Part shown: positions 20,947 through 38,600 of the stretch, one piece after another
How the letters are laid out: each line of letters begins with the position of its first letter
Position numbering within the stretch: position 1 is the first letter of the stretch
NCBI GenBank assembly: GCA_021234155.1
Contig: JAJEKV010000487.1
Location: forward strand, 110,339 to 174,338
DNA length: 64,000 bases
Source: Isoetes taiwanensis
Taxonomy: Eukaryota; Streptophyta; Lycopodiopsida; Isoetales; Isoetaceae
Reading direction: 5' to 3'
Position numbers and translations under genes: made by a program
The notes under the pieces: model-generated
Database searches by the model: none
What the model saw: the letters and a program-made list of their open reading frames with translations, nothing else
What the model was told of the DNA's origin: nothing

Positions 20947-21670
20947 TGTTAGCACACCAGCCCTACCGGGCCTACGGCCTTTCCTGTTATCCATGTGTCA
21001 TTTCCACCTCAGCCAAATCTGAGATGGCATGCAAATGTACCATTAGATCTAAGCTTTTTCTCATCCACGGTCACCAAAATTAGAAAAGCCTTAAAAATTG
21101 GAGAACGGGGATAGCAAAGGAAGTCGATCCCCTGCTTTGTCATAGCTCGTTATCAATCCCCTGCTCTGTCATAGCGAGAAGCTACAAACGGTCAGGTCCC
21201 AACACTTTTCAACCCACTCTGCAAAGTGTGCACAGGAGGGGCGGATGGAGTGGACTACCCTCAGCCATGTTCCTATGCCAGCCAAATCCAGTTGCCATGA
21301 ATTCTGTCTGCAATGATGTCTGGAGGCCAAGCCGTCGGTCAAACCCCCTTGAGTCTGAGCCTTGGGTAGGTTTCCCCCTTTGGTTATTATTATTCATATT
21401 GATGTTGTTGTTTATGTGATGATCATGATGTGTTCATCCTTCGAGGTGATTGTATTGATATATTGTTATTATGTGCTCATGTTTGTACACGCTTTCGCAG
21501 ATAGGTTGACCCGAAGGGAGATGGGTGAATGACACATCCACTCTTCCCTTGCTGGCTCATTCCACTGGGAGTGGAGTCAGGTGGGTGGCCCCTGCCAGTT
21601 TGGCTGACAGGGGGAATGCTCCGTCTTCTAATACGATGTGTGCATCGTATAAGAAGTAGGGGACGTCACA
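20947..21670 (+). mobile_element. 5' LTR of an LTR retrotransposon
   Basis: The right edge is well defined: GGGGACGTCACA ends in CA one base before the tRNA primer-binding site at 21672. The left edge is set at TGTTAGCACACC, the first TG-starting block that fits a TG...CA LTR (724 bp), and is less certain. It contains cis module copy C (20989-21083). No second LTR copy is present in the window, so neither its length nor the target duplication can be confirmed. Confidence 0.62.
20989..21083 (+). promoter_or_regulatory. CCACGTGTC-type cis module, copy C (inside the LTR)
   Basis: CCATGTGTCA, ACCATTAGATCTAAGC and CATCCACGGTCACCAAAATTAG occur in the same order as in copies A and B, in the region expected for LTR U3 regulatory sequence. 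Confidence 0.4.
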
Positions 21671-21671
21671 G

Positions 21672-21683
21672 TGGTATCAGAGC
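21672..21683 (+). other. Primer-binding site, initiator tRNA-Met
   Basis: TGGTATCAGAGC is the standard plant LTR-retrotransposon primer-binding site, complementary to the 3' end of initiator tRNA-Met, placed one base after the LTR's terminal CA. Pairing weakens after 12 bases. Confidence 0.9.
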
Positions 21684-21891
21684 ATGATCTTGGTAGACCA
21701 AGATCGAGCACTGACCATTTTCCCATAGGACTAACAGTAGACTTCAAGTCTTGGGAATAGCCACCCAAGCAAGAACCTCAAAAATTGGAAAAAAAAAAAA
21801 TCCAATTTCTAGAGCAGTAAATAGGTTAATGCTAAGTTAGTAGTAAGTTTTAGCAAAAACCCAACCAAATTTGGCCAAAAAGAGGTGACCC

Positions 21892-21954
21892 CTCACAGAG
21901 TGCGCCCAAACCAAATCCGCCATTCTCGGATTTGCTCCTCGCGCACTGTGTGAG
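21892..21954 (+). repeat. 63 bp two-stem hairpin, copy 1
   Basis: Outer arms CTCACAGAGTGCGC and GCGCACTGTGTGAG pair over 14 positions with one mismatch. After an internal loop, inner arms CAAATCCG and CGGATTTG pair perfectly around CCATTCT. It lies 222 bp after the primer-binding site. Confidence 0.95.
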
Positions 21955-22103
21955 TGGTGACCCATGTTGACCTAGTTAGATGCATAATTTAGCTAATCTG
22001 ATAGTCCAATTCAGCTTATTCCTTAGATTCTAGCTAGTTTTGCATGTTAGAGCACTAAGAAACTCCTTATAAATTGAAAATTAGGCCCAAAAAGAGGTGA
22101 CCC

Positions 22104-22166
22104 CTCACATAGTGCGCCCAGACCAAATCCGCCATTCTCGGATTTGCTCCTCGCGCACTGTGTGAG
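22104..22166 (+). repeat. 63 bp two-stem hairpin, copy 2
   Basis: Same structure; the outer mismatch position is T (a T-G wobble). It shares the flanking AAAAAGAGGTGACCC with copy 1 and lies 225 bp upstream of the H3-like ORF. Confidence 0.95.
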
Positions 22167-22278
22167 TGGTGGATGCTTTCTGGCTAAATAAACCTAATGT
22201 ACACTTGATATCTACACTAATACCTTCTAGATTGGCCTAATATGGAATTGCAGGTCCAAACCCTAAATTACCCCTACC

Positions 22279-22300
22279 TATAAGTAGAAAATTAGGGTTC
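22279..22300 (+). promoter_or_regulatory. TATA/AGGGTT promoter of the H3-like gene
   Basis: TATAAGTAG is followed by ATTAGGGTTCCTC, about 110 bp before the start codon, a normal plant core-promoter spacing with a CT-rich leader (CTCTCCTCACCTCC). The same TATA plus AGGGTT pairing precedes the second cassette at 24366-24385. Confidence 0.6.
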
Positions 22301-22390
22301 CTCATTTACTCTCCTCACCTCCAGCAAACAGCTCCTCGTCCCAGAAGACGATTTTTAGGCGCCAGGAGTCGGATTGCTTCGATACAAAAC

Positions 22391-22966
22391 ATGGCCCGGA
22401 CCAAACAAACCGCCCGCATTGTAGTGCCCCCTAGTCACACGAGCCCGCTCAACAGAAGGCCCGACAGGCTCAAGAGCGAGCCGGGCGGGAACAGATCTTT
22501 GAGCCAACCTAGGCGCCCAAGAGCAGCCCCGGAGGCGTCGGGGAGGAGGAGCCGGCATTGCACAGCACTTAAGAAGAGCACCCCAAGCCACGAGGAGGAG
22601 GAAGCTGCAGAAGAGTTGAGGAGGGAGCTCAAGAAGTTGGAGAAGATGGACCGGAAGAGGAAGCGGGAGGGCAAAGAAACAGAAGTAAAGAAGACAAAGG
22701 AGGAGCGCCGGCGAGAGAAGGAGGAGCGCCGAAAACGAAAGGAGGAGAGGAGGCAGAAGAAGGAGGAGAGGAGGAAGCGCAGGGAGGAGCGCTTGAAGAA
22801 GAAGGCAGAAAAGGGGAAAGACCCCGAGCCGCCTAAGGAGGCACGACGGAAGCTGAAGACGACGCCGGCCAAAGACGTCGTAATTTGGGAGCAAGAGCCC
22901 GATAAGCCGCCATCCTCATCTGACACTGAGTCAGATGATGGGGATAAGGATCCTCGCTCCAGCTGA
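22391..22966 (+). CDS. Histone H3-like protein, N-terminal long-tail part
   Basis: The start codon sits in AACATGGCC and the protein begins MARTKQTAR, identical to histone H3 residues 1-8 after the initiator Met. It then departs completely (IVVPPSHTSPL). Residues about 10-65 are basic and Pro/Ser-rich; about 67-141 form an uninterrupted Glu/Lys/Arg helix-like stretch (repeats of KEERRK type); about 171-191 are acidic and Ser-rich (SSSDTESDDGDK). Canonical H3 has a tail of only about 40 residues. The frame stops at 22966, but the histone fold continues in the next frame (22884-23585). The join could be an indel, a +1 frameshift or an 88-base GT-AG intron at 22880-22967, which keeps the frame. 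Base composition is much more GC-rich than the flanks. I know of no such H3 variant. Confidence 0.85.
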   Translation: MARTKQTARIVVPPSHTSPLNRRPDRLKSEPGGNRSLSQPRRPRAAPEASGRRSRHCTALKKSTPSHEEEEAAEELRRELKKLEKMDRKRKREGKETEVKKTKEERRREKEERRKRKEERRQKKEERRKRREERLKKKAEKGKDPEPPKEARRKLKTTPAKDVVIWEQEPDKPPSSSDTESDDGDKDPRSS

Positions 22967-23585
22967 GGGCTCGGGACCCTCGAACCCAGGAAATGAAGAG
23001 GAGGAGCAGGTAGCAGAGGTACCCCCGTACCCAAGGTGGCCATCCCCAAAACACCCGAGCACCGACAAGAAGAAGCCAAGGCCTGCGCGGGAGTCCTACG
23101 TACTCAAGCACGAGCTTGAGTACAGGAAGAAACTCAAAGAGTATAACCAGTACATGAAAATGTACGAGGAATACTCAAAGTACTATGAGGAGCACAGGGT
23201 CACCTACGTGGAAGGAGGCGGGCCAACCAAGAAGAACACCTTGAAGCCGCCCCGAGAAAGACCAGCACCTCCGAAGAAGCCCATAAGGAGGAAGGCGGAC
23301 TCGTATTTTGCAAGAGCTGCTCGAGAGATCCGGCACTTCCAGAGGAGCTATGGGTTGCTGATCCCAAGAGCCCCTTTCGCGAGACTCACTCGCGAAATTT
23401 TGCAGGAATTCGACAAATCCAAGCGAGTAACAGACGATATGTTACTCGCGCTACAGGAGGCGGCCGAGCAGCACATCGTCCAGCATTTTGAAGATTCCAT
23501 AGCATGTGCTCTACATGCAAAAAGGGTAACATGCATGCCTAAGGACATGAAGCTGGCCAGATACATTAAGAAAGAAGACTGTTAA
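22884..23585 (+). CDS. Histone H3-like protein, C-terminal part with complete histone fold
   Basis: This frame is open from 22884. Counting from its first ATG (22935): an acidic patch, then a Tyr-rich coiled segment (residues about 52-88, EYRKKLKEYNQYMKMYEEY), then a Pro/Lys linker, then the histone fold at about 123-216. The fold reads EIRHFQRSYGLLIPRAPF (H3: EIRKYQKSTELLIRKLPF), RLTREI, ALQEA, FEDS, HAKRVT and MPKDMKLAR, covering alphaN to alpha3. Loop 1 has the same length as canonical H3, while LLIP-APF resembles CENH3. Residues matching H3 R83, C110 and H113 are kept (R164, C191, H194). AlphaN lacks the GTVAL signature and is about 2 residues shorter. The gene ends with GACTGTTAAG and an AT-rich 3' flank. 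A role in nucleosomes is inferred from the fold only. Confidence 0.9.
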   Translation, partial: FGSKSPISRHPHLTLSQMMGIRILAPAEGSGPSNPGNEEEEQVAEVPPYPRWPSPKHPSTDKKKPRPARESYVLKHELEYRKKLKEYNQYMKMYEEYSKYYEEHRVTYVEGGGPTKKNTLKPPRERPAPPKKPIRRKADSYFARAAREIRHFQRSYGLLIPRAPFARLTREILQEFDKSKRVTDDMLLALQEAAEQHIVQHFEDSIACALHAKRVTCMPKDMKLARYIKKEDC

Positions 23586-23730
23586 GTCTGTTGTAAATAA
23601 TTTTTGTAAATGCAAATTTATGGTTTTGTCAAATTAATGTGTTAAATCCTGCTTAATTAGGGTGTATTACTAAGTTCTGCATTTGGAATCAACAAAATTG
23701 GAGCAAAACTCAGTGTTTTTTGCCCCACCC

Positions 23731-23793
23731 CTCACAGAGTGCGCCCAGACCAAATCCGCCATTCTCGGATTTGCTCCTCGCGCACTGTGTGAG
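23731..23793 (+). repeat. 63 bp two-stem hairpin, copy 3
   Basis: Agrees with copy 1 except one base in the internal loop (CCAGACC instead of CCAAACC). Preceded by GCCCCACCC. Confidence 0.95.
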
Positions 23794-23933
23794 TGGTCGA
23801 GCACTGATCTTGGCCAAAACTTGTCCAAATGTAGAAAGTAAGGGCACCATTCGACTCATCTCATTGTGTTTAGTAGGATTTGACCCTTAGATTGTAGAAA
23901 TTGGCCAACCCAAACCCAAATGGAGCCCCACCC

Positions 23934-23996
23934 CTCACAGAGTGTGCCCAGACCAAATCCGCCATTCTCGGATTTGCTCCTCGCGCACTGTGTGAG
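23934..23996 (+). repeat. 63 bp two-stem hairpin, copy 4
   Basis: Differs from copy 3 by one base (AGTGTGCCC), which turns a C-G pair of the outer stem into a wobble. Confidence 0.95.
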
Positions 23997-24137
23997 TGGT
24001 CGAACCCAAAACTAGGCCAAAACTTGTCCAAATGAAGAAAGTAAGGGCACAATCCGACCTATCTCGACGAGATGAGCAGGATTCCACCCTTAGTTTGCAT
24101 GTTTGGCATAATCCTCGACCCAAACAAGGCCCCACCC

Positions 24138-24200
24138 CTCACAAAGTGCGCCCAGACCAAATCCGCCATTCTCGGATTTGCTCCTCGCCCACTGTGTGAG
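24138..24200 (+). repeat. 63 bp two-stem hairpin, copy 5
   Basis: Two differences from copy 3 (CTCACAAAG; CTCGCCCACTG); the second breaks one outer pair. It lies 177 bp upstream of the second cassette's TATA box. Confidence 0.95.
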
Positions 24201-24365
24201 TGGTCACACCATAATTGTCCTAGATTGTCCTAACTTTCTCCAAATTAGATGAAATTTGTTGCAATGGGATCCTTAGAATGCACTCTTCAACATAATTAGC
24301 CTGTGATTTGCATAGCAATATCTTAGAATCATAGGGATTCTCCAATTTTGAAATTTTCCAAAATT

Positions 24366-24385
24366 AGGGTTTTGCCTATAAATAG
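24366..24385 (+). promoter_or_regulatory. TATA/AGGGTT promoter of the second cassette
   Basis: AATTAGGGTTTTGCC directly precedes TATAAATAG, about 100 bp before ATG at 24483, with a CT-rich leader. The layout mirrors the promoter of the H3-like gene. Confidence 0.6.
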
Positions 24386-24482
24386 ACCACAATCCTCATT
24401 TGTATCCTACACCTTTGCTCCTCACTCCAAGCCGATTTTCCAGCTCCCTAAGGCGCTTCCCCATCTGTTTGTTATCCCCACC

Positions 24483-26009
24483 ATGGCAACCTCTGCATTT
24501 AGGCGATGATACAGCGCCACAGCTCATGTGGCCGAGGCCGACATCAACTCCGTCTTCGCCATCTTCCAGAAGGAGGTTGGAAGCCACCATCAATGCCACA
24601 CCTTACTACCAAGACATCATGTCTGAGTTCCATGCTAAGGTAGGACCTTCTCTAGTAGAGCTCCCACCTTGCATAGGATATTTTGCACCAAGCATGGCCC
24701 TCAAGATAGCACTGCAAGACATCCCCAACATAGATAAGTACCTAGAAAACAAGGCTAGTTGCTTGCCTAACTATATGTCCATAAATGTGAATAGGAGGAG
24801 ATACTTTTCTTACACCGCAGCCGTAGCTATCTTCCTATCTCATCGAGCCCAAACCCAGATAGGAGAACCATCAGTGCAACCCTTAGACATCGAACCTATG
24901 GCCATGGCAGCAGCTGAAGAAGAGAAGATGCGCCTTGCATACGAGGAGGCGGAGGAAGAAGAAGAGGAAGGACGCGACTCAGACACAGAAGACATCGACC
25001 TAGTACAAGAAAGGCAGCAAGCAGAGCAGCAGCCCCAAAGCTTCGAAGAAGGGCTGAGAGCCACAAGAACAGCCCCACCACTTGGGCAAGGCATCACAAG
25101 CTTGACCCAGTGATTATCCAAGGAGAGGCATACTTAAGCCTCCACGACATCAAGAACCTCCCAGAGTGCAGAGATAGGGGCTATAGAATAGATGAACTTC
25201 TGCATCTCCTACGGCAAGAACCAGACCTCGACGACTTCATCGACCGGGAAACACAGGACTTTCCCATTAGCATAAGGGAAGCCCGGATTTACACTGGCCA
25301 GACATCAACGGATATCGAAGCCTACACCGGCATCAGACAGATGATGGCTCAACAGGAGTTGCCCTCGGAAGAGGAGTTCTTAGCAATTCAGGAGAGCATG
25401 GGAATCAGAGGAAAATCAATGTTCGCGCTCCTTCCTAGCACATCGGCATCGGCACCAGAACTAGTTGAAGGCAGCATCAACCTAACAGCTTCCATGTACC
25501 GTGATTACAGAGAGATGGTGGAAGTACTGGTTGATGAGTACTCCGGAAGACACAGAGCAGCCTTCACATCGGGCGAAGAGGCAGGGCATGACAAAGCCCT
25601 TAGGTTCTACCTCTCCTTGCTCATAGATGGAAGGATAGCGGTTATACACTGCCAATACAGCCCACGGGGTGAAGAAGGAGTCTTCATGCTCATTGCTCTC
25701 TCAGGATTCGGAAGTCATATTCGGATGGCCCCAAACATCGACCATGTCATCCTCGTCAAGAGAACAATAGCATTGAGCATCTTCGACTTCGCAGTCCCCT
25801 ACAGACGGCAGGGCAGATTGGCAGTGACTGCAGCCTATACATCAGAGAGGAGGATTGAAGACTTTTTACGTCACGGCCACAAATATCCTCAGGAACCTAG
25901 GGCGAACAATCAGCACGGCCGAAGTGAAGAAATGTTTGGAGGACAACCTGGATTACTTGAAGAAATTCCAAGAATAGAATTAGAAATGTTTTCAAATTTC
26001 CATGACTAA
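24483..26009 (+). pseudogene. Orphan protein of about 500 residues, broken frame (cassette 2)
   Basis: The probable start is CCACCATGGCAACC (MATSAFRR), but codon 9 is TGA. The same frame goes on as YSATAHVAEADINSVF, then shifts near 24575 into a long frame reading ATPYYQDIMSEFHAKVG, with an acidic Glu-rich stretch (about 24910-24990). It shifts again near 25098 into a 300-codon frame (IIQGEAYLSLHDIKNLP and onward) ending at 26009 with an AT-rich 3' flank. There is no signal peptide, membrane segment or motif I recognise. The long open frames and two clean frame switches show a gene damaged recently, or sequence errors. Being an accessory ORF of the LTR element, between primer-binding site and gag-like sequence, is inference from position. 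Confidence 0.6.
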
Positions 26010-26095
26010 TATCTTGAATGTATAAAAAGTATTATATCCATGAATATAAAAGATGATCTTAATTATGTTTTCTTGACATATAATCGCTTCCACAA

Positions 26096-27260
26096 TTGCA
26101 TCATCAAACAAACCAGTGCAACAACCCAAACAAAGAACTAATCATCAGAGTTCAATCTAATGTGCATGCAGCTGGAGCACCTAGGAATGTTGGGGAACAA
26201 GGACAACGTGAACAAGAGCGTACTCCACCAAGGCGTTTCCAGCCAAGAAATCTGTACCAAGAGTTTGATGCAGCAACACCAGAGGAAGAGCTATCCCAGA
26301 TTAGGTCTGACATTCATGAGATAAGGGCATTCTTTGGCGGGAAGCGGCGGGGAGGCGGGGATCGAGAATGTGCCATTGCGAAACACCACCCGCCCGAGCG
26401 GTGCAACAAAGGAAGAAAGCGGGAGAAGAAGATCTCCCTGGCTTCGGGGTCCTCAGACTCTAGCTCGGTCGATTCGGATCGGAAGAAGGGGAGGAAGGGA
26501 GGTAGGACCGCCAGGAGGGTCCAAACCATGATAGGGGCAGGACACAATCTGACTATCAGAAGAAGGTCGACTATGGAAAGCAAGGAAGCTAGAGCAATTC
26601 TCAGGGGATAGCAGATCTGGAATGGAAGCAGAAGCTTGGTTAGATGAGATGAGAGAGTATGGCAATGCTTATGGCATGAAGGACAAAGACAAAGGCGAGT
26701 AGCTACAAACAAACGAAGGGAGCGACCCGGGATATGGTGGAAGGGATCGCCAAAGCACATGGATTGGCGAGGGACGATTCTGCGAGGTTCAAGAAGTTTG
26801 CTAAGGCATTCAAAGCGTCATTACGTGCCAAGAGAACATAAGTGTCACATGATGCGGCGATTTTTGCGAGGTTACAATGGGGGCAACAAATCGATTCAGA
26901 GAAGTACGGAGGAATTCATGAGACTAAGGTTATATGTGCGAAGTTGAGTGAGAGGCACCTTGATAGGGAGGTTACATCGAAGGATTGAATGAAGAGATCC
27001 GAAAGCTAGTAAGAGCAATAAACCCTAGGGCGGTGTCGAAGCGAGAATCCAAAGCGGTCGGCAAGGGCAGGACCCCAAGAGCATGCACCAAAAGCGGCGA
27101 TATTACCGGGATAAGGAAAAGGGCACGGAGGCTATAGCCCAAGAGTAGCAAGCCCGACAACTAGCGGGCCTCAATACAAGCGCTAATTATGGGAAGCGGG
27201 GCAATGCAAACACGACAAGCGGGGATAAGAAGCGGTGACCTTCAAAGAAGCGGGGGGGGG
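26096..27260 (+). pseudogene. gag-like remnant of an LTR retrotransposon
   Basis: A 172-codon frame (no ATG at its start) reads LYQEFDAATPEEELSQIR, coiled-coil-like, then a basic Ser/Lys-rich stretch. After a frame switch it reads GMEAEAWLDEMREYGNAYG, similar in shape to the AEAWL segment of plant Ty3-type Gag. Downstream to 27260 the frame is broken by several stops but stays Lys/Arg-rich. No zinc knuckle, protease, reverse transcriptase or integrase could be found after it. Gag assignment is moderate; lineage is unknown. Confidence 0.45.
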
Positions 27261-27600
27261 TTCCAACTACTCCAAAGGCGGTGAAATAGTTTTTGCAATC
27301 CATTCTTAAAGAGAAGAAGGAAAAGCCCTTATATAGAAACCCTTAGGGTTAGGTTAGACATTGGCCAAATGGGGTTTAGCCATTTGGCAATGGGAATCCA
27401 TGGGGTTTATAATTGTGTATGTTTATTTAACATGCACAACACGAGTTCCCCACTAGGTGTAACACTTGCCCTCTAGGTGCAACCCTTCTGACTCTCAAGT
27501 ACATGTCATTTGTGACATATGCGTGTGACGATGTGATATAATATCACGTTCGGATCGTATATTATCTTTGGAACATCACATGCCATAATTATAGTTTCAT
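27261..27600. other. Non-coding stretch with TATA-like motif
   Basis: A G-run (GCGGGGGGGGG) is followed by CTTATATAGAAACCCTTAGGG, a TATA-like box next to an AGGGTT-type motif, then non-coding text with CACTAGGTGTAAC/CTCTAGGTGCAAC repeats. It could be a polypurine tract plus degraded 3' LTR, but it does not match the 5' LTR at 20947. Confidence 0.25.
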
Positions 27601-31499: not shown

Positions 31500-34400
31500 T
31501 ACTTACGAATGTTTGAGCACGGGGTGGCATGTTTGAGCACAGGGGTGGCGGTTTGATAAGTTCTCGGACGGATGTTGGATTTTTTGGCCCTTATCGAGCG
31601 AGGGCCCTTGAGCGAAAAGGATTCAATGGTGGGATAGGGGGCAGAGATCCGGGGAGTGTGGTCTTTAAGCGTCACGGCCCCGTAGCTGCCCGGGAAAGGC
31701 TACCTTGGGAAACTTTTTGGGGCTCGCCTCTTGGGGTTCGGACTCTCCCCTCTAATGAGGCGGCCTTGCAAGGTCCTGGCCTTGTTTGACTTGGGCAAGT
31801 GTGCCGGCTCTCATTTGCCCAACAACGAGGCTGCCGGACCGTTCTAATGCAAACACTTTGATCTAAACCTTGTCGGGAAATTTTGGCGGCTTTGTATGTT
31901 GGCGATGACTTGGGAAGCCCTGATGACAAAAAATCAGAATTTAATTAGGTACTATGCATTAATTACGAATTTATGAATGTCTTGCTACTTGCAAAAGGCG
32001 CCCTTTACTTCTAACTACCACAGCGGAGAATCTGGATCAAACTCCATTCCGTCGGTTCCCCTTGCTTGGCGTTCTCAAGCGCATCTTATCGGCCAAGTCC
32101 CAAGTGCAAAAGACCAAACTTCGGCACCCAAAGCGCCAAACCTTTGCTAGAACACGGCAACTCATAGGGTTTTACGTTTGGGGCTCTATCCTTGTCGGAT
32201 TCGACTAGGACCCTTGGCAGTGTCTTGATGTAGAGAGTGGTGTTGGCCTTGAGCACGGACCCTAAAACCCACAGGCGGCTTGCCCCAAAGTCCTCTCCAG
32301 AAGGCCACGGCGACCGGACGGGCAGCTTCCCTCCGGAATCGTGATTCGGCTACGCCAATGGACTCGGAATGTCGACATTGTCACGGTGACCAAGTTTCGT
32401 GGCGAGAAGACCACCCCTTCTCGGGAGGCGTCAAACTATCTCATGTCCAACACACTCGTAGTCAATTGGCCTAGGAGGTGGCTATCGAATCTTTTAGCGT
32501 GGGCGTAAGTGTTTTCTTTCTTTTGCAAAACCGAAGTTGTGAAACTTGGTCTCTAGGGTAATTTCGGCCTCATGCCGGACGATGTGGCGAGAATCAAATC
32601 GCCATTAGAACCCCTCTGCAATGTCGAGCGACAAAACACTTTGGTTTCTACGATTCGGTAGCGGAGGGGCGGCCAGCGGTTTGATAAGTTTCTCGGACGG
32701 ATGTTGGATTTTTTGGACCTTATCGAGGGCGGGGCCCTTGAGCGAAGGATTCAGCGATTGGGATAGAGGCAGAGATCAGGGAGTGTGGTCTTTAGCGTCT
32801 GACCCCCGTGGTTGTTTGAAAGGTACGCCTCGGGGAAAACTTTGGGGCTCGCCTCTTGGGGTTCGGACTCTCCCCTCTAATGAGGCGGCCTTGCAAGGTC
32901 GGCCTTGTTTGACTTAGGCAAGTGTGCCCATTTCGGTTGCCCAACAGCAGAGCTGCCCGGGACCGTTCTAATGCAAACACTTTGATCTAAACCTTGTCAG
33001 GAAATTTTGAAAATTGGCTGTATGTTGGCGATGACTTAGGAAGCCTCTTTGACAAAAATCAGAATTTAATTCCGTACTATGCATTAATTACAATTTATGA
33101 ATGTCTTGCTCTTTTGCAAAAGCTGCCCTTTACTTCTAAGCTGCCACAGCGGGAGAGATGCAGATCAAACTCCATTCCGTCAGTTCCCCTTGCTTGGCGT
33201 TCTCAAGCTGCATCTTATCGGCCAAGTCCCAAGTGCAAAGGACAAAACTTCGGCATCAAAAGCGCCAAACCGCTGGAACACGACAACTCATAGGGTTTAC
33301 GTTTGAGCTCTATCCTTGTCGGTCGACTAGGACCTTCGCCGAGTGTCTTGGCGTAGAGGGGTGTTGGCCTTGAGCGGACCTAAAACCACAGGCGGCTTGC
33401 CCCAAAAGTCCTCGCCGAAGGCCACAGCGGCCGGACGGGCAACTTCCCTCTCGGGAATCGTGATTCTCGCCAATGGACTCGGAGCGTTGACATTGCCCTA
33501 GGGACCAAAGTTTCATGGCCAAAGACCACCCCTTCGAGGTAGCATCAAACTATCTCATGTCCAACACACTTCGTAGTCAATTGGCCTGGGAGGTGGCTAG
33601 CCGAATCTTTGCAGCGTGGGGGCGTAAGTGTTTCTTTCTTTTTAAGCCCGTGAGTGCAACTTGGTCTCTAGGGTAATTCGGCCTCGGACCGATGTGGCGA
33701 AATCGAATCGCCATTAGGAGCCTCGCAATGTTACGAGCGACAAAACACTTTGGTTTCTACCGCGGTCGACCAGCGGGGCGCCAGCGGTTTGATAAGTTCT
33801 CCCGGGCCGGATGTTGGATTTTTTGGACCTTGTCGAGGCGGGGCCCTTGAGCGAAGGATTCAGCGGTCGGATAGGGGTAGAGATCGAGGTGTGGTCTTTA
33901 GCGTCGGCATTGCATTTGCCGAAAGGCGCCTCGGGGAAACTTTTGGGGCTTCGCCTCTTGGGGTCGGGACTCTCCCCTCTAATGGGGTGGCCTTGCAAAG
34001 GTCGGCCTTGTTTGACTTGGGCAAGTGTGCTTGTTCGGTGCTTAACAACGAGCTGCCGGGCGTTCTAATGCAAACACTTTGATCTAAATCTTGTCGAAAA
34101 TTTTGAAAAGCGGCACGTATGTTGGCGATGACTTAGGAAGCTGCTGACAAAAAATCAAATTTAATTTCATACTATGTATTAATTACGAATTTATGAATGT
34201 CTTTTCTTGCAAAAACGCCCTTTACTTCTAAGCGCCTAGCGGAGAGTCTCTGAGGATCAAACTCCATTCATTGCGGTTCCTTGCCGTGTTCTCAACTGCA
34301 TCTTATCGGCCCAAGTCCAAGTGCAAAAGACCAAAAGGCTTCGGCACCCAAAGCCAAACCTTCTGGGGCGACAGCTCATAGGGTTTACACGTTTTAAATC

Positions 34401-37400
34401 ATGTCGGTCGACTAGGACCTTCCTTGCCAGGTAATGTCTTGATGTGGGGGTGGTGTGTTGGCCTTGACCACGGACCCCTAAAACCACACAGGCGGCTTGC
34501 CCCAAAGTCCTCTCAGAAGGCCACAGCGGACCGGGGCAACCTCCCTCTCAGGAATCGTGATTGGCTACGCTAATGGACTCGGAATGTCGACGCATTGTCA
34601 CGGTGACCAAGTTTCGTGGCGGAAGACCACCCCTTCTGAGGAAGCGTCAAACTATCTCATGTCCAACATACTGCGTAGTCAATTGGCCTAGGAGGTGGTA
34701 TCGAATAACCAGCGTAGGGCGAAGTGTTTCTTTCTTTTGCAAAATGGCCGGAAACTTGGTCTCTAGGGTAATTTAGGCCTCCCGGACGATGTGGTGAAGT
34801 CAAATCGCCATTCGAGACCTCGCAATGATCAGAGAACGACAAAACACTTTGGTTTCTACCGCGGTCGACCCGGGGCGCTTAGCCCGGTTTGATAAGTTCT
34901 CGGGGCCGGATGTTGGATTTTTTGGACCTTATCGAGGCGGGGCCCATGAGCGAAAAGGATTCAGCGATTGGGATAGGGGAGGCGAGAGATCGGGGAGTGT
35001 GGTCTTTTAAGCGTCGGCCCCGTGTTGCGGCGGCCGGGGAAGGCTACCGGGGAAACTTTTGGGGCTTTCGCCTCTTGGGGTTCGGACTCTCCCCTCTAAT
35101 GAGGCGGCCTTGCAAGGTCACGGCCTTGTTTGACAGGCAGTGTGCGGCTCGGTTGCCCAACAGCGGGAACTGCGGACGTTCTAATGCAAACACTTTGATC
35201 TAAACCTTGTCAGGAAATTTTGAAAACTTGGCTTTGTATGTTGGCTGATGACTTAGGAAGCTTCTCTGCAAAATCAGAATTTAATTCGACTATGCATTAC
35301 TCATGAATTTATGAATGTCTTGCCATCAGTAAAAGCCGCTTTACTTAATCATGCCAATGAGGGAGGCTGTATCCAAACCCATTCCGCCGCCTTGCTTCAA
35401 GGCTCACCGCATTCATCGCTGTTCCAAGTCAAAGGGACTAAAATCGCATCCAAAATCGAACCCTCATGGAAACCGATAACCATAGTGGTTTACGCTTCGG
35501 AGGTTTCTATTCCCTTTGCCGGGCTGGACCAGACCTGCGCTCGGTCTTGTCGAGGGGTGTTGACGCCAGCCACGGACCCTAAAAACCACCCAGAGGCGGC
35601 TTGCCCCAAAAAGTCCTCCTTGAGAAGGCTCCAGCGACGGACAGGCAACTTCCCCTCCGGGAATCGTGATTCGCTCGCCAATGGACTCGGGCGTTTGACA
35701 TTGCCCTAGGGACCAAGTTTCATGGCCAAAAGACCACCCTTCTCGAGGTAGCATCAAACTATCTCATGTCAACACACTTTCGTAGTCAATTGGCCTAGGA
35801 GGTAGGCATAGAATCCGACCGCGTGGGGCGTAAGTGTTTTCTTTCTTTTTGCAAACCGACAGGTGCAACACAGTCTCTAGGGTAATTTCAGCCTCCCGGA
35901 CGATGTGGCCGACCGCATTCGCCGAGTTTTCCGCACGTTCTGAGCGACAAAACACTTTGGTTTCTACGGTCGGCCGCGGGGTGGACAGCGGTTTGATAAG
36001 TTCTCACCCAGACCCGGATGTTGGATTTTTGGACCTTATCGAGAGACGGGGGCCCTTGAGCGAAGTTGATTCAGCGGTCGGATGGGGGCAGATCCCCGGA
36101 GGGTGGTCTTTAGCCGGGACGGCTCCCCTGGGAGTTTCGCCAGAAAGGTCAGCTGAAACTTTAATGCCTGGTCGTGGACTTCTCCCTATCGAGGTGGCCT
36201 GCGCTGTCCTGGCCTTTATTTCGACCTGGGCAAGTGCCACCGCTGCTCAACAACAGTCGTCGTGACTGCTTCCACGCAAACACTTTTGATCTAAATTGTC
36301 CAGAATTTGAAATCGGGTCAGAGTGTTGGCTGGCGACTTTAGGAAGCTTTGTTGACAAAAATCAGAATTTAATTTGCTACTATGTATTAATTACGAATTT
36401 ATGAATGGTTCCTTGCCATCAGTAAAGCTGCCCCTTTACTTAACCGCCACGGAGTGAGTATGATTAAATTTTCCATTCCGCCGCCTTTGCTCGTGATTTC
36501 AATCAAGACCATCGGGCCAAGTCCCATGCAGAAGACTAAAATCCTCAGACCCCAAAACGCAAACTCCGCGAACTCGCACTCATAGGGGTTGACGCTTTTG
36601 AGGCTCTATCCGTCGACCGACTAGGACCTGGCGTCGTTGTCTTGACGTGAGGGGTGGGTGTTGAGCGAAAGTACCTGGACTTTTAAACCACTCGAAGCAA
36701 ATTTTGCCCCAAGTCCTTCCTCCTCAAGGCTCTCGCGACGGGAGCTGCAACCTCTCCGGATCGTGATTCGCTCGCTAATGGACTCAATGTCGACATTGCC
36801 CTGGGACCAAGCTCGTGGCTGTAAGACCACCCTCTCGGCGGAAGCGCCAAACTATCTCATGTCCAACACACTCAGTCACTGGCCCAGGAGGCGGGCCGCC
36901 ACCACCCAAACGAGGGCGAAGTGTTTTTTCTTTGCAAAATCGACTGTGTAACTTGGTCTCTAGTACTTCGGGCTCGGACGGCGTGGCAAGTCAATCGCCA
37001 TTCCGGAGCTCGCGAAGGCCGTCCGAACGACAAACACTTTGTTTTCAGTAAGGTTTACCGTGCAGAACGCTTCAAGGTTTGATAAGTTTCCTGACCTGAT
37101 GTTGGATTTTGTTGGACCTTATCGAGCCAGGGCCCCTTGAACGAAGGATTCAACGGTGGGATAGGGGAAACCAGATCCGGGAGGTGGTCTTAGCTGTCTA
37201 CGGGCCCCTGGGAGCGCCGTACCGGAAAGGGCTACCTCGGGAAACTTTTGGGGCTACTCTTGGGGTTCGGACTCTCCCCTCTAATGAGACGGCCCTTGCA
37301 AGGTCCCCGTCCTTGTTTGACTTTGGGCAAAGTGTGCCCTTCATTTGCCCAACAACCGTTTTGCAGGACCGTTCTAATGCAAAACACTTTGATCTACACC

Positions 37401-38600
37401 TTGTCCGGAAATTTTGAAAAACTGGCATGTATGTTGGCTGGCGACTTAGGAAGCCCGGCGACAAAAAATCGAGAATTTAATTCCGTTACTATGCATTAAT
37501 TACGAATTTATGAATGTCTTGCTTTGCAAAAGGCGCCTTTACTTCTAAGCGCCATAACCGGAGGAGTCTGGGATCAAACTCCATTCCGTCGGGTTTCACG
37601 CTTAGCGCTGCGTTCTCCAAAGCGCATCTTGCTCGGCCAAGTCCCAAGTGCAAAAGACCAAGGCTTGACACCCAAAAGCGCCAAACCACCTGCTAGAACA
37701 CGGCAACTCATAGGGTTTACGTTTGAGGCTATCATCTTGTCGACGGACTAGGACCTTGCGGAGTGGCTCTTGGCGAGGGGTAGGCACGAGGCGAGTGGAC
37801 TTTAAAACCATCCGGAAGGCTTGCCCCCCAAAGTCCTCTCCGGCCACGGCGACGGACGGCAACTTCCCTCTCCGGAATCATGAATTCGGCTCGCTTAATG
37901 GACTCTTTAAACGTCGACATTGCCACAGGGACCAAGTTTTCATGGCGGAAGACCACCCTTCTCGAGGAAGTGATCAAACCATCTCGCGTCCAACACACTT
38001 TCGTGGTCGGTTTTAGGAGGTGGCGGTCGACACCTTGAGCGTGGGGAAGCGTAAGTGTTTCTTTCTTTTGCAAAATGGCGGCAACTTAATCTCTAGGGTA
38101 ATTGCCCTCCCGGACGATGTGTGGCCGAATCGCCATTAGGAGCCTCATAATGTCTAAGCGACAAAACACTTTTGGTTTCTACCGCGTAAAACCCAGCGGG
38201 GCCGTTTGGTCGGGTTGATAAGTTCTCGGACCCGGATGTTGGATTTTTGGACCTTATCGAGGCGGGGCCCTTGAGCGAAGGATTCAATGGTGGGATAGGG
38301 GAGCAGGATCAGGGGTGTGGTCTTTAGCGACTGACCCAGTGCCGGCCTGCCGAGGAAAGGCGCCTCGGGGAAACTTTGGGGCTAAGCCTCTTGGGGTCAG
38401 GACTCTCCCCTCTAATGAGGTGGCCTTGCAAGGTCACGGCCTTGTTTGACTTGGGCAAGTGTGCCGGCTTCGAGGTGCCACAAAGTTCTCTTCTGAAGGC
38501 CGGCAATGGACGAGGCAATTTCCCTCTCAAAACCATGATTTGGCTCTTCGGACTCGAGGAATATCGACGCATTACCACAGGGACCAACACCGTGGCGAAG
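31500..38600. repeat. Array of about seven diverged 1.1 kb units
   Basis: The landmark GATGTTGGATTTT occurs at 31571, 32700, 33810, 34909, 36017, 37098 and 38235 (spacings 1129, 1110, 1099, 1108, 1081 and 1137). Units also share CTCTCCCCTCTAATGAGGCG, AATGCAAACACTTTGATCTA and TTATGAATGTCTTGC. They differ by many substitutions and small indels. No frame stays open through a unit, so they do not look coding. The last unit is truncated (jumps at about 38460) before the right subterminal repeats. Units are GC-rich compared with the surroundings. Confidence 0.92.

Follow-up and report, generated by a model that had tools for sequence, protein, structure and literature searches.

How does a protein that starts as histone H3 starts and finishes in a complete H3-type fold come to hold hundreds of residues between the two, and whose gene is it? 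The question was raised by a reading of the bare letters of 64,000 nucleotides of Isoetes taiwanensis DNA (a stretch that we call the window), which described the gene as a divergent H3 and tacitly left it to the host. Here, we propose a different owner. The H3-like gene, which we call ORF1, is almost certainly an extra gene of a ~13.3-kb Ty3-type long terminal repeat (LTR) retrotransposon, a chromovirus, of Isoetes. That answer replaces the first question with two others: has the element kept the protein for use, and if so, for what?

Results

One Protein in Two Frames

In the window, ORF1 falls into two frames, the second offset from the first by one base (Table 1). The sequence-only reading had placed a MARTKQTAR start and a complete H3-type fold about 275-300 residues apart, with a Glu/Lys/Arg stretch, acidic patches and a Tyr-rich coil in the insert; the frames bear this out, with a separation of about 300 residues, and the C-terminal part matches the Pfam Histone family (E 2.6e-25), with histone H3.3 as its closest solved structure in the PDB (E 8e-24). 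When residues 195-397 of the joined protein were used as a query, six proteins among 316 candidates reached E <= 1e-3. All six are Pfam Histone proteins with 42-60% of those residues covered, and none of the six has an ORF1-type tail in its sequence. The fold alone returned two proteins at E <= 1e-20 among 317.

By hand, from the listed donor and acceptor sites, an intron of 55 nt or 130 nt could restore the frame; we rejected such an intron because two sister copies read through in a single frame. The break is local to the window copy and is either real decay or a residual assembly error. The assembly was made from Nanopore reads and polished with racon and pilon (PMC8566536), and small indels in repeats may, therefore, be errors. 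The word histone is absent from the main text of that genome paper.

Sister copies are many. In the genome (1,658,258,908 bases, 1110 contigs), a DNA search scored 40 copies among 1417 first-look candidates, namely the window and 39 others at 75-89% identity, spread over many contigs; a 30-mer of the ORF1 coil, with up to three mismatches, matched 139 times, and its reversed control matched 0 times. Among the 39 sister copies fetched, two carry start, tail and fold in one open frame. In L003, this frame spans 418 codons between stops and gives 415 aa counted from Met; in L044, it spans 460 codons and gives 411 aa, as against an H3 length near 136 aa. In the other 38 of the 40 (the window copy among them), start and fold never share a single frame; we counted as broken four copies (L007, L024, L027 and L039) with fold frames of 368-399 codons in which the start is not intact.

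Table 1. Coordinates of the features discussed, numbered from the first letter of the window except for the last two rows, which are genome positions
Feature	Position	Strand	Remarks
Decayed element fragment	21188-27319	+	last 485 bp of LTR, primer-binding site, ORF1, ORF2, gag start
5' LTR remnant	21188..21670	+	last ~485 bp, ends GGGGACGTCACA
Primer-binding site TGGTATCAGAGC	21672..21683	+	12-mer beside LTR in window and five sister copies inspected
Leader with two ~73-nt hairpin copies	21885..22172 (21885-21960, 22097-22172)	+	MFE -37.7 and -41.3 kcal/mol; z -6.9 and -7.3
TATA-like motif CCTATAAGTAGA	22278..22289	+	113 bp upstream of ORF1 ATG
ORF1, first part	22391..22966	+	191 aa; MARTKQTAR start, charged Glu/Lys/Arg stretch; frame-shifted relative to second part in window copy
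ORF1, second part	22935..23585	+	216 aa; acidic linker, Tyr-rich coil, H3-type histone fold (about 23310-23580)
Spacer with three further hairpin copies	23724..24206	+	in ~203-bp tandem repeat
Second TATA-like motif CCTATAAATAGA	24375..24386	+	108 bp upstream of ORF2 ATG
ORF2 (MATSAFRR...)	24483..26009	+	split into several frames in window; no Pfam family above cut-off
gag start, decayed	26084..27319	+	homology to sister copies stops at 27319
Antisense LTR-start piece	27317..27405	-	adjoins break point
Second H3 fusion family, locus L065	G000:C974:15273857-15275598		
Second H3 fusion family, locus L066	G000:C913:1406170-1407891		

The Carrier Is a Chromovirus

The window copy is a decayed fragment, and the anatomy of the element is best read from its sisters, in which ORF1 lies between the primer-binding site and gag. 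Their complete LTR is ~1.6 kb long and runs TG...CA (L009 160-1767); we rejected the 21188 edge as an end of the element because the LTR has that length and the window copy is truncated. The primer-binding site we take to be of the initiator-Met tRNA type and, judged by it, the carrier would presumably belong to the Tekay/Del-like lineage of chromoviruses. Downstream of gag, sister copies hold protease, reverse transcriptase (RT), RNase H, integrase and a chromodomain. In sister copies L012, L013, L014 and L020, gag, protease, RT, RNase H, the integrase zinc domain and the chromodomain all exceed the Pfam cut-off, whereas the integrase core match falls below it (18.2 vs 32.6 bits); the chromodomain sits at the integrase C-terminus (PF00385, E 4.4e-9 and 1.9e-9), and gag has a zinc-knuckle-like CFRCFQPGHRTNNC stretch, with a Pfam match below cut-off.

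Both LTRs are present in four of the six sister copies fetched as 10-kb chunks, compared with one truncated LTR in the window, and the members of a pair differ by K2P 0.030-0.038 over ~1.35 kb. The length of ~13.3 kb for complete copies is arithmetic from LTR and chunk coordinates. Both sets, the 40 copies and the six 10-kb chunks, were picked through ORF1 and describe ORF1-bearing elements. To the left of the LTR in L009, positions 1-159 resemble by eye the ORF2 of another copy, so the L009 element may sit inside a relative.

The element is like other chromoviruses in its LTRs, its initiator-Met-type primer-binding site, its gag-pol order and its chromodomain. It is unlike them in that two further ORFs, both preceded by a TATA-like motif, separate the primer-binding site from gag and in that hairpin repeats surround ORF1. 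Each of the letters TATAA before ORF1 survives in 95-97% of the 39 sister copies (the following G in 59%), but many columns around the motif are kept at 90-97% too, which leaves a small excess for the motif itself. Before the ORF2 ATG, CCTATAAGTAGA is intact in five of seven sister copies and deleted or cut in two. Five ~73-nt hairpins flank ORF1 (window 21885-24206), with z from -6.6 to -7.3. ORF2 is alike between copies; that of L018 has a subthreshold match to the HindVP restriction endonuclease family (18.7 and 15.2 bits vs a cut-off of 25). The AlphaFold2 (AF2) model of ORF2 was unusable (mean pLDDT 36). Elsewhere in the window, a unit of about 1.1 kb is repeated in tandem at least five to six times over 31566-38470, with a GC content of 0.41-0.53.

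The Fused Frame Was Selected

Has the element kept ORF1 for use? Variants of different ages should be told apart here, and we took singletons as mostly postinsertion and variants in at least three copies as mostly inherited from active elements, counting codon positions in 33 of the 40 aligned copies (seven gappy copies were dropped, as they were for the non-coding controls). Singletons fall evenly over the three codon positions (193:174:182), whereas variants common to three or more copies pile up at the third (131:123:329). Put as silent over changing variants, the ratio is 129/420 for singletons vs 318/265 for shared variants (p 6e-27), with a shift in the same direction in all five segments of ORF1 (p from 6e-4 to 2e-10). 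Transversions only give p 2e-9 over all of ORF1 and just p 0.053 in the first 80 residues. The 600 non-coding bases on each side of ORF1 have no codon-position bias: 58:44:53 in the leader (p 0.38) and 75:66:69 in the spacer after ORF1 (p 0.74). Between the intact frames of L003 and L044, dN/dS is 0.18 (0.177).

Because shared variants favor third positions and both the singletons and the non-coding controls are even, these counts show that purifying selection acted on the fused frame (tail, coil and fold together) during the period in which the element was moving. Parallel mutation among the shared variants would dilute this codon signal and not create a third-position excess. The sister copies and the codon test together exclude a chance fusion in one assembly, the case in which the sequence-only reading would have fallen.

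What the Protein Kept and What It Lost

Compared with 12 loci of canonical and variant host H3 genes (L053-L064), ORF1 shares the fold, the residues of the H3-H3' bundle and the ARTKQTAR end, and it differs in its length (~415 vs 136 aa), in having lost lysine 9 and segment 39-44 and in a fold identity of ~55%. At the ARTKQTAR end, between 27 and 36 of the 40 copies retain any given one of residues 1-9; where H3 has lysine 9, 32 of 40 copies have Ile and one has Lys. Within the fold, the residues kept (of 40) include H113 (36), R116 (38), D123 (37), L126 (37) and I130 (40) together with R49 (38), R69 (39), R72 (34), R83 (35), K115 (38) and T118 (36), which we take to be H3-H3' and DNA-contact residues. 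The H3 segment HRYRPG (39-44) is absent, R63 is replaced by Pro and K79 is replaced by Asp, and with these changes, a normal nucleosome is not assured.

An AF2 model of ORF1 predicts tail helices at 19-48, 81-158 and 252-285 and puts the H3 helices in the interval 323-413, with modest confidence (mean pLDDT 65, pTM 0.24). The 50 best PDB matches of this model in Foldseek are chains of nucleosome entries, in loose superpositions (rmsd 12-23 A, TM to target 0.43-0.59). The tail scores 21.1 bits, below the Pfam cut-off of 26.4, against CAF1A_acidic (the acidic region of CAF-1 p150), a match that may be composition only. What stands of the original description, then, is a single protein that begins like H3 and has a giant, charged and partly helical tail and a fold that, to judge from its residues, could be competent for nucleosomes; what falls is its place among the genes of the host.

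Where the Fold Came From

Window fold identity is 55% to host H3 and 49-52% to two plant CENH3s, and it is highest to two unplaced proteins, P0008 (59%) and P0005 (58%). We built a larger tree with the 25 of 40 element folds that have no gap or stop and a smaller one with seven of those 25; the CENH3 sequences in both are provisional, and branches are long. All element folds (TE1) fall in a single clade (100/100), itself on a long branch. The smaller tree sets them on the same side of a branch as the two plant CENH3s, at a nonsignificant 73/40 that depends on the provisional CENH3 rows; the larger tree, with provisional rows and long branches too, puts them with P0007, apart from CENH3 (98/95), and joins P0005 to the two plant CENH3s (99/96). 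Topology tests reject neither a grouping of the element fold with the second fusion family described below (p-AU 0.16) nor one with P0007 (0.61). ORF1 is like plant CENH3 in its divergent long tail and, presumably, in its LLIP.APF and T..LLALQEAAE stretches, and it is unlike CENH3 in loop 1, which has H3 length in the alignment and not the longer CENH3-type form.

A Second Family of H3 Fusions

Searched with a canonical H3, the genome yielded 150 scored matches from 9022 candidates. The first 15 are host H3 at 96-98%. The other 135 align at 71-86% from a point between H3 residues 3 and 36 onward, and many of them lie in frames 400-567 codons long. Two loci, L065 and L066 (Table 1), join a 300-aa head to an H3 fold that is near-canonical, and both lack MARTKQTAR. 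The head matched no protein at E <= 10 among 3707 candidates and no known family, and no homology was found between it and ORF2. In the one pair compared (L065 vs L066), dN/dS is 0.085, with 0.02 for the H3 part at a dS of 1.5. With the head as query, at least 131 loci were found (131 scored of 7252 candidates), about 90 of the 131 without an internal stop by hand count, and because of this spread, we infer that the second family is mobile.

Another protein, P0004 (549 aa; longest ENA contig 6349 bases), has a MARTKQ start and an H3 fold fused to an Ulp1-type peptidase C48 and, going by its domains, is possibly one more mobile-element histone fusion. It was excluded from the alignment used for the model.

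Discussion

Is a histone on a mobile element without precedent? The sequence-only reading knew of no described counterpart. For retrotransposons this stands in the open literature searched, and for mobile elements at large it does not: hAT DNA transposons of Dothideomycete fungi captured histone H3 (PMC6710886). Like the Isoetes element, they carry H3-derived sequence at copy numbers from tens to hundreds; unlike it, they are DNA transposons with a transposase and terminal inverted repeats in place of LTRs and gag-pol, and their captured H3 has an ordinary-length coding sequence of 411 bp (PMC6710886). The captured H3 is RIP-dead in Pseudocercospora fijiensis and recent, in identical copies, in Pyrenophora tritici-repentis, and the portion of that report drawn on here describes neither a giant tail nor selection on captured copies (PMC6710886), whereas ORF1 has both.

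Another parallel is found in orchids, where Ty3/Gypsy elements carry an AlkB-like m6A demethylase ORF proposed to bear on host surveillance (PMC9289625). These too are plant Ty3 LTR retrotransposons with an acquired host-type extra ORF, the product being an RNA demethylase there and a histone in Isoetes. The same report screened LTR elements of 121 angiosperm genomes, a set that lies outside the lycophytes, and counted 15 extra domains, with no histone among the approximately nine named in the part drawn on here (PMC9289625). We found no retrotransposon-borne histone, and so no retrotransposon with a rebuilt, selected H3, in the open literature searched, most subscription papers being outside its reach.

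What, then, might the protein do? The best explanation overall, to which we give a probability of roughly 0.45, is that ORF1 is an element-encoded H3 variant that enters nucleosomes and resists silencing. The element would make the ORF1 protein as a private H3 variant; the protein would pair with host H4 and enter nucleosomes through the H3-H3 and DNA-contact residues that it has kept; its ARTKQTAR end, of the kind that H3K4 readers and erasers bind, would still be offered to them; and the long charged helix could bind DNA in the manner of the CAF-1 KER helix or bar compaction. H3K9 methylation is the transposon-silencing mark of plants, and because ORF1 is without lysine 9, chromatin containing its protein would be unable to carry that mark (the absence is uninformative on other marks). 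The net outcome would be less silencing of new element copies. For the antisilencing step taken by itself, our commitment is a tentative one.

Several other readings have to be weighed against this one, and some of them are dealt with quickly. A single-copy host H3 variant gene would have the H3 start and fold that ORF1 has, but a dispersed multicopy family with LTRs and gag-pol is no such thing; we rejected it on the scored sister copies and the coil matches in the genome and leave it almost no chance. A captured passenger without function, on the pattern of the RIP-dead fungal copies, would account for the many copies without a single frame holding start and fold. It would not produce a third-position excess of shared variants that runs through all segments and is absent in two non-coding controls, nor the low dN/dS between the two intact frames, and on the codon signal against those controls we rejected it as hardly credible. 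That ORF1 mimics CENH3 and brings the element to centromeres is very improbable: the LLIP.APF and T..LLALQEAAE resemblance, the nonsignificant branch of the smaller tree and the likeness to P0005, which groups with CENH3 in the larger tree, speak for it, and against it are a loop 1 of H3 length, the higher identity to host H3 than to the two CENH3s, the larger tree and the dispersal of the copies over many contigs.

The remaining alternatives grant the protein a function and differ on where it acts. It could pack DNA or RNA, coating the cDNA in a virus-like particle or a preintegration complex outside host nucleosomes, and the highly charged tail, the lost 39-44 segment and the presence of gag in the same element would suit such a role; packing needs neither an exact ARTKQTAR end nor the kept H3-H3' bundle residues, however, and gag already has its zinc-knuckle-like stretch (its Pfam match below cut-off), so we think this unlikely. 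Nor do we expect much of a targeting tether, in which ORF1 nucleosomes mark element-rich chromatin that the element's own integrase reads to steer insertions. Its integrase does end in a chromodomain, but the usual chromodomain ligand is methylated K9, which is missing from the ORF1 tail. A free protein acting as a decoy, titrating H3 chaperones, K4 readers or demethylases and thereby upsetting silencing without deposition, is similarly improbable, if a shade more so; the kept ARTKQTAR end and the long charged tail would serve it well, but constraint covers the full fold and not the tail alone.

With ORF1, nature has run an experiment on what in H3 can be altered: the tail is some eight times longer and K9 is lost, and selection maintained the H3-H3 interface along with most DNA contacts. 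Mobile elements are silenced via histone H3, in plants chiefly via lysine 9. An element that carries, rebuilds and conserves its own H3 would attack that silencing directly or would handle element DNA in a new way. A broader proposal, which we hold to be rather doubtful, is that Isoetes retrotransposons write their own nucleosomes, the chromovirus blocking heterochromatin on its new copies with an H3 that is without K9 and has a giant charged arm, and the second, separately built fusion family doing likewise in another way. If this is true, there would be a histone-based arms race between the mobile elements of plants and the silencing that restrains them.
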